Below, piece by piece: positions 13,056-13,840 of a DNA stretch of 50,198 nt. Origin of the DNA: Candidatus Zambryskibacteria bacterium RIFCSPLOWO2_02_FULL_39_26 (GTDB taxonomy: Bacteria > Patescibacteriota > Minisyncoccia > Phycocordibacterales > DATDWN01); NCBI GenBank assembly GCA_001825395.1, contig MHWN01000019.1:1-50198 (forward strand). The letters run 5' to 3'. The notes under the pieces are model-generated. The model was not told where the DNA came from. It ran no database searches and saw only the letters and a program-made list of their open reading frames with translations. Every line of letters starts with the position of its first letter. Position 1 is the first letter of the stretch. The position numbers and the translations under genes are program-made.

Positions 13056-13102
13056 TTTCCCTCCCATTCCCCTAGGCGACGCCTAGGGGAATGGGAGGGA
13101 AA
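13056..13102. repeat. REP-like 47-bp palindrome downstream of RAYT
   Basis: tttccctcccattcccctaggcg-a-cgcctaggggaatgggagggaaa. Confidence 0.95.
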
Positions 13103-13110
13103 AATAAATA

Positions 13111-13797
13111 TTATTTATTAAAGGTCACCCAATCAAAAATCTCTTTATCGAAAATTTCTTTGTCTAAAAAATATTGTGGAAAAACCTTTAGATTTAAAAT
13201 CCTGCCTCTTAATCTTTTGATTTTCCTAAAATCTAAATAACTGCTCCACTCATATTTATTTAAAAATTCAATGCTTTTTTTAACATTTCGTATCTCCTTT
13301 TCTTTCCATAAAGGATCTATTAATTTTAAAGGGTTTAGATGTATATATGAAAAAATGTATTTTGATTGAACATCATTTTTTGTATGAACTGCTTTAAATG
13401 GACCTTCAAAAAGTTTTCCTGTTCTTTTATATTTTTTATTAAAGTACATTGAATATGATGTGCAAAGTTTTTGAACGAACACGCTGATTGAATTCGTCTC
13501 CTCTCCTAGGTCCCCTAGGCGACGCCTAGGGGAAATGTATAGATGAAAATGATTGGGCATTAAAACCCATGCTCCGATTGAAACAAGTTCTTCCCCTCTA
13601 TTGAAATCGAAGGCATCAATTTTTTTACCAACAATATCATCCCTAAAATTTATACTTTTTTCTGAATTGCACAAATATAATAATTTTGTAAATCTGTCTC
13701 TATCTAGATCATCGGTAAAAATATTTTGCTTGCTGTTCCCACGATTATAAATATGGTAATACTCCCCTTCAACTAAAGCTTCTTTTCTATATGTCAT
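13111..13797 (-). CDS. REP-associated tyrosine transposase (RAYT, Y1/IS200-like)
   Basis: GEYYHIYNRGNSKQNIF, WVLMPNHFHLYI, YFNKKYKRTGKLFEGPFKA, YIHLNPLK; flanked by matching palindromes. Confidence 0.93.
   Translation of the reverse strand: MTYRKEALVEGEYYHIYNRGNSKQNIFTDDLDRDRFTKLLYLCNSEKSINFRDDIVGKKIDAFDFNRGEELVSIGAWVLMPNHFHLYISPRRRLGDLGEETNSISVFVQKLCTSYSMYFNKKYKRTGKLFEGPFKAVHTKNDVQSKYIFSYIHLNPLKLIDPLWKEKEIRNVKKSIEFLNKYEWSSYLDFRKIKRLRGRILNLKVFPQYFLDKEIFDKEIFDWVTFNK
13511..13533. repeat. REP palindrome inside the RAYT coding sequence
   Basis: tcccctaggcg-a-cgcctagggga, same core as 13056..13102 and 13820..13840. Confidence 0.95.
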
Positions 13798-13819
13798 ACG
13801 TAAGATTATATCATACCTA

Positions 13820-13840
13820 CCCCTAGGCGTCGCCTAGGGG
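13820..13840. repeat. REP palindrome upstream of RAYT
   Basis: cccctaggcg-t-cgcctagggg. Confidence 0.95.

Follow-up and report, generated by a model that had tools for sequence, protein, structure and literature searches.

How does a transposase gene come to carry the palindrome that flanks it inside its own reading frame as well, and what would keep it there? The question is raised by one gene in the 50,198-nt stretch analysed here (the window, contig MHWN01000019.1 of Candidatus Zambryskibacteria bacterium RIFCSPLOWO2_02_FULL_39_26). RAYTs and REPs have a wide distribution. Inverted REPs on both sides of a RAYT, co-evolving with it, have been described (Nunvar 2010, PMC2817692). The third, intragenic copy of the window gene had been taken in the original prediction for an in-frame self-insertion of a REP into its cognate transposase.

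The gene (13111..13797, stop codon counted in; like all features of this locus, on the minus strand) encodes a protein of 228 aa, which was confirmed as a RAYT-like Y1/HUH transposase. The product matches the Pfam family Y1_Tnp (PF01797, E 4.7e-6), and its best solved structural match is 4er8, an E. coli RAYT with a bound REP hairpin. As expected of a RAYT, it has a Y1/HUH domain, in which the HUH histidines (H83 and H85) and several tyrosines do not vary over 48 sequences, and a cognate palindrome is present at both gene ends, in the window as well as in most relatives. All three predicted REP copies, one on each side and one in frame, were recovered. The downstream copy, directly 3' of the stop codon (13056..13102), is perfectly palindromic over 47 nt, the internal copy is a 23-nt palindrome, TCCCCTAGGCGTCGCCTAGGGGA (13511..13533), and the upstream copy is a 21-nt palindrome with its centre 33 nt 5' of the ATG (13820..13840). 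They share the core CCCCTAGGCG-N-CGCCTAGGGG, and exact matches of CCTAGGCGNCGCCTAGG start at 13071, 13514 and 13822, while the chance expectation in 50 kb, with 3 mismatches allowed, is 0.06. The count of the core in the genome, which had been proposed as a check, gave five exact copies in 611 kb: the three at the RAYT locus and two elsewhere.

Read in the orientation of the gene, the internal REP encodes SPRRRLG(DLGEE), directly after the HUH strand and between HFHLYI and TNSISVFVQKL, as predicted. The extra residues, SPRRRLGDLGEE (aa 89-100, codons at 13498..13533), lie in the loop joining the HUH strand to the tyrosine helix, which has 29 aa here and 21 aa in short-loop relatives. In the AlphaFold model of the protein (mean pLDDT 90.3), this REP-coded loop sits between strand 83-90, which carries the HUH motif, and helix 103-122, and its residues 91-100 are, the first residues of the protein aside, the low-confidence part of the model. 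The inserted residues thus belong to a flexible loop, and the enzyme is otherwise intact.

The distribution of the loop among relatives places the insertion in time. A single scan of 84,980 species genomes yielded 80 RAYTs, nearly all from Patescibacteria, or 81 with that of the window. The loop after the HUH motif falls into two classes in these proteins: 21 aa (23 genes) and 25-41 aa (58 genes, including that of the window). The palindrome is absent from the 21-aa loops, none of which (0/23) shares 12 nt with its own flanks. By comparison, in 50/58 long loops a stretch of at least 12 nt is identical to one in the gene's own flanks (searched to 120 nt), and in 45/58 the stretch reaches at least 15 nt. 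When loops were compared with the flanks of other loci as a control, 12 nt was reached in 3.4% of pairs and 15 nt in 1.7%. When the loop was left out of the tree, the long-loop genes, together with one short-loop gene, L063, fell on one side of a branch with support 100/98.6. Two state changes account for the loop trait on this tree, interpreted as a single gain and one reversion to 21 aa, so that the long loop is kept in 58/59 members of the clade. L063, with its 21-aa loop inside the long-loop clade, seems to have lost the internal REP cleanly. A second RAYT set, from 30 of the same genomes, contained one further long-loop gene, L246, which also carries the palindrome of its flank. Judged from sequences and tree, the in-frame internal REP is old and ancestral to the patescibacterial RAYT clade, and is not a recent private event. 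The prediction of a self-insertion was thus right in that the residues are inserted relative to the shorter relatives, all of which except L063 lie outside the long-loop clade, and wrong in treating the event as specific to this gene. As to what had been held to speak against it, only one half applies: the extra residues did turn out to be ancestral in the clade, but the palindrome does recur elsewhere.

The sequences of the REPs are strongly diverse between genes (for example CCACATGTC-N-GACATGTGG, ACGGAAGC-NNN-GCTTCCGT, CCCCTAGGTC-N-GACCTAGGGG, CCAAACGCC-N-GGCGTTTGG and many others), and we compared the 18 arm bases of internal and flanking copies. The internal REP had a median distance of 0 to its own upstream REP (78% of pairs differed at no more than one base) and of 1 to its own downstream REP, equal to the median of 1 between upstream and downstream REPs. 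Against other loci, its median distance was 10, and 3% of pairs were within one base. The tie between the coding copy and the flanks is therefore as tight as that between the two flanks. In one pair of genes, L034 and L036, the proteins are 84% identical and the internal centre lies at the same nucleotide, yet 16/18 arm bases differ, and each internal REP matches its own upstream flank. Within subclades the REP sequence changes but the centre of the palindrome keeps to a single nucleotide (278 or 282). Across the clade the centres occupy all three codon phases, which indicates that it is the DNA or RNA palindrome, and not a peptide, that is maintained. As each of dozens of genes has a palindrome of its own, the three copies appear to change together over evolution. 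The lock is imperfect: about 8/58 long loops no longer match their own flanks, and in L071, the closest relative of the window RAYT, flank and internal copies differ.

Self-insertion of REPs into RAYT genes is recurrent. About half of the RAYTs compared (75/146) contain, within the coding sequence, one or more stretches of at least 14 nt identical to the gene's own flank, at sites about -26 to -13, +2 to +32, +75 to +107 and +120 to +154 aa relative to the HUH motif, the last group partly overlapping the gene end. A paralogue in the genome of the window, L010 (G000:C28:2073-2522), has four copies of another REP, TGGAAGCAAGGCTTCCA: one upstream, two in frame and one downstream. The paralogues L007 and L008 have in-gene palindromes too.

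From position and phylogeny, we infer that the in-frame REP is old and that its sequence has been rewritten in place along with those of the flanking REPs. The history that we favour, with good confidence, is that of a REP-RAYT unit in which an ancient in-frame insertion was inherited by the clade and the three copies then evolved in concert. A cognate REP would have inserted long ago, in frame, into the loop that links the HUH strand to the tyrosine helix, and the whole patescibacterial RAYT clade would have inherited it; afterwards, palindromy and the match between copies would have been kept while the sequence drifted between lineages. The most likely cause would be recognition of all three copies by the RAYT, with either its REP-copying activity or selection for recognition homogenising them.

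The region upstream of the gene suggests that the REPs may also have a role in expression. In the window, a TATAAT (13805..13810), the probable -10 box of a leaderless transcript, ends 7 nt 5' of the ATG and adjoins the upstream REP; its position is conserved in the family. A TATAAT (at least 5/6 bases) ends 6-7 nt 5' of the ATG in 44/55 long-loop genes, against 0.53 per position elsewhere, and a Shine-Dalgarno-like motif was found in 0/58 long-loop genes. The upstream regions of L011-L090 show the same leaderless layout across the RAYT family, with TATAAT 6-7 nt 5' of the ATG and the Shine-Dalgarno missing. The upstream REP usually covers the -35 region, and its orientation is fixed (13/13) where the centre is CTT/AAG. 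As it abuts a leaderless -10 box, autoregulation may be suspected: REP binding over the -35/spacer region of the leaderless promoter would probably also limit the expression of the RAYT itself. If the transcript is leaderless, the upstream REP would be active only as DNA, and the internal and downstream copies would be transcribed.

An explanation with an appreciable, though clearly lesser, chance of being right goes one step further and holds that selection maintains the internal REP as a regulatory site, either a second operator or a RAYT-bound mRNA hairpin, which together with the promoter-proximal REP limits expression. It is compatible with the favoured history, to which it adds a function, and lac O2 is an example of an operator inside a gene. 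Retention of the long loop by nearly the whole clade speaks for it, as do the leaderless promoter and the single orientation of an upstream REP lying mostly over the -35 region. However, the orientation of the internal REP is mixed (9 to 5), and short-loop relatives with the same type of promoter manage without an internal copy. Moreover, IS200/IS605-type proteins are known to bind single-stranded hairpins, so that a duplex operator is hypothetical. Somewhat more tentatively still, we consider that the intragenic REP may be a selected part of the system, the protein and its three REPs forming one self-regulating, co-evolving unit in which the internal copy, as a second operator or an RNA hairpin, would keep transposase and target matched.

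Less probable, and in our view unlikely, is that the loop is a hot spot for repeated insertion, where each new REP replaces a decayed older one and nothing is rewritten in place. Between subclades the position of the palindrome does shift by several codons and change phase, L063 indicates that the loop can be cleared, and self-REPs are found at other sites in RAYTs as well. Against repeated insertion into the loop stand its single origin on the tree and the constancy of the centre within subclades despite the change in REP sequence.

The two remaining explanations are very improbable. A recent insertion private to the window gene would fit the perfect identity of its three cores and the in-frame extra residues relative to shorter relatives, but is refuted by the clade-wide distribution of the same loop insertion. 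The encoded peptide could be the selected item, for example a DNA-contacting loop, with the palindrome as a by-product, and its place between the HUH strand and the tyrosine helix is near the catalytic residues in sequence; however, the peptides of different members are unrelated (SPRRRLG, SHMSDMW, TEALLPSG and others) and are translated in different phases, non-coding flank copies match at the DNA level, and model confidence at the loop is low.

REP copies dispersed outside the RAYT loci are often intragenic. Pattern searches found 3-20 REP copies per genome in relatives, and a reversed control pattern gave no matches for the two 17-nt patterns. Among dispersed REPs outside RAYT loci, 43/65 fall within open frames of 150 codons or more, against 78% of random positions in the same loci; as these values are close, genes are hardly avoided by REPs. 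Fifteen dispersed sites are close pairs, REPIN-like. The host genes, named by eye from sequence, include TopA, LeuS, MnmA, GAPDH, DNA primase and PheT. The fourth exact core of the window's genome (L001:1501-1517, G000:C14:9070-9086) is in frame in the gene of a metallo-beta-lactamase-fold (RNA exonuclease-like) protein, where it again codes for SPRRRLG and its arms are extended to 20 bp. Most relatives show just a short turn at this place, so that the copy is an insertion there, and L324, from a species of the same genus, carries a related insertion that is partly degenerate. The fifth core (L002:1501-1517, G000:C16:3276-3292) maps within a group I intron (Rfam RF00028, 50.3 bits), with tRNA genes nearby. 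In the window, at 1476-28691 on the minus strand, the rRNA genes are split up, and Rfam identifies at least four group I introns there.

In TopA of several Patescibacteria (L127, L128, L138, L183-L211), one and the same alignment column holds in-frame inverted REP pairs whose sequences differ, and in MnmA single REPs occur at a similar shared site in several genomes. This suggests that rewriting takes place in host genes too, re-insertion being the alternative. The in-frame REPs of host genes are probably products of the same RAYT activity. A host-gene REP could be linked to a RAYT of the same genome for MnmA (G010, G013, G028, G030) and for TopA (G003, G014); no such link was found for TopA in G012 and G025, and as the link fails at some host sites, we claim no general one. 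Two candidate regularities were rejected. Insertion at the tips of pre-existing hairpins would fit the extended arms of some intergenic copies and of the metallo-beta-lactamase-fold gene copy, which are absent from most coding copies. A half-arm direct repeat beside the palindrome (CTAGGGGACTAGGGG, CTAGGGGACCTAGG at the window copies) is not general, occurring beside internal copies in 0/53 cases on the left and 1/53 on the right.

Compared with known systems, the locus is closest to the RAYT/REPtron (PMC2817692; TnpA_REP, PDB 4er8), with which it shares an IS200/IS605-related Y1/HUH transposase, two flanking palindromes, dispersed further copies and the co-evolution of flanks and RAYT. It differs in the extra, clade-inherited in-frame copy, in the number of copies (five exact ones here and 3-20 in relatives instead of the usual >100 per genome) and in having no conserved GTAG head, which was found within 8 nt in 2/79 flank copies (CTAC in 0/79). 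On account of head and copy number, we call the system RAYT-like and not a canonical GTAG REP system. With IS200/IS605 TnpA (IS608, ISDra2) it has the catalytic fold and hairpins at both ends in common, but the structural match to the window RAYT is weaker than that of 4er8. To our knowledge, an internal copy is not a family trait of IS200/IS605 TnpA. TIRYT/TIRtrons (PMC3733652) likewise combine a RAYT-like gene with inverted-repeat flanks without GTAG, but the described TIRs are long, and the part of PMC3733652 covered here reports no in-gene copy. REPs and Rickettsia palindromic elements (RPEs) in frame in genes, among them DNA-repair and tRNA-synthetase genes, are known as well (Di Nocera 2013, PMC3733652). 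Like the dispersed REPs described here, these are short in-frame palindromes in many conserved protein genes, some of them paired. RPE-type elements have a CGTC tag and no dedicated transposase, whereas here there are cognate RAYTs and the tag was seen in 0/79 flank copies (GACG in 1/79). In the literature covered, chiefly the main texts of open-access papers, flanking and intragenic REPs are reported, none inside a RAYT gene and none clade-wide and homogenised; this is absence of evidence only.

The finding touches on two questions, how a RAYT stays matched to a changing REP and how RAYT genes are regulated. Each gene of the clade comes with three target copies, one of them inside the reading frame, and the natural pairs number in the dozens, with REPs that differ greatly. 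These natural RAYT-REP pairs are a ready set for working out the recognition code and for tests of concerted evolution. Additionally, in-frame palindromes like those of Rickettsia, which are without a known mobiliser, are here joined to a candidate enzyme.
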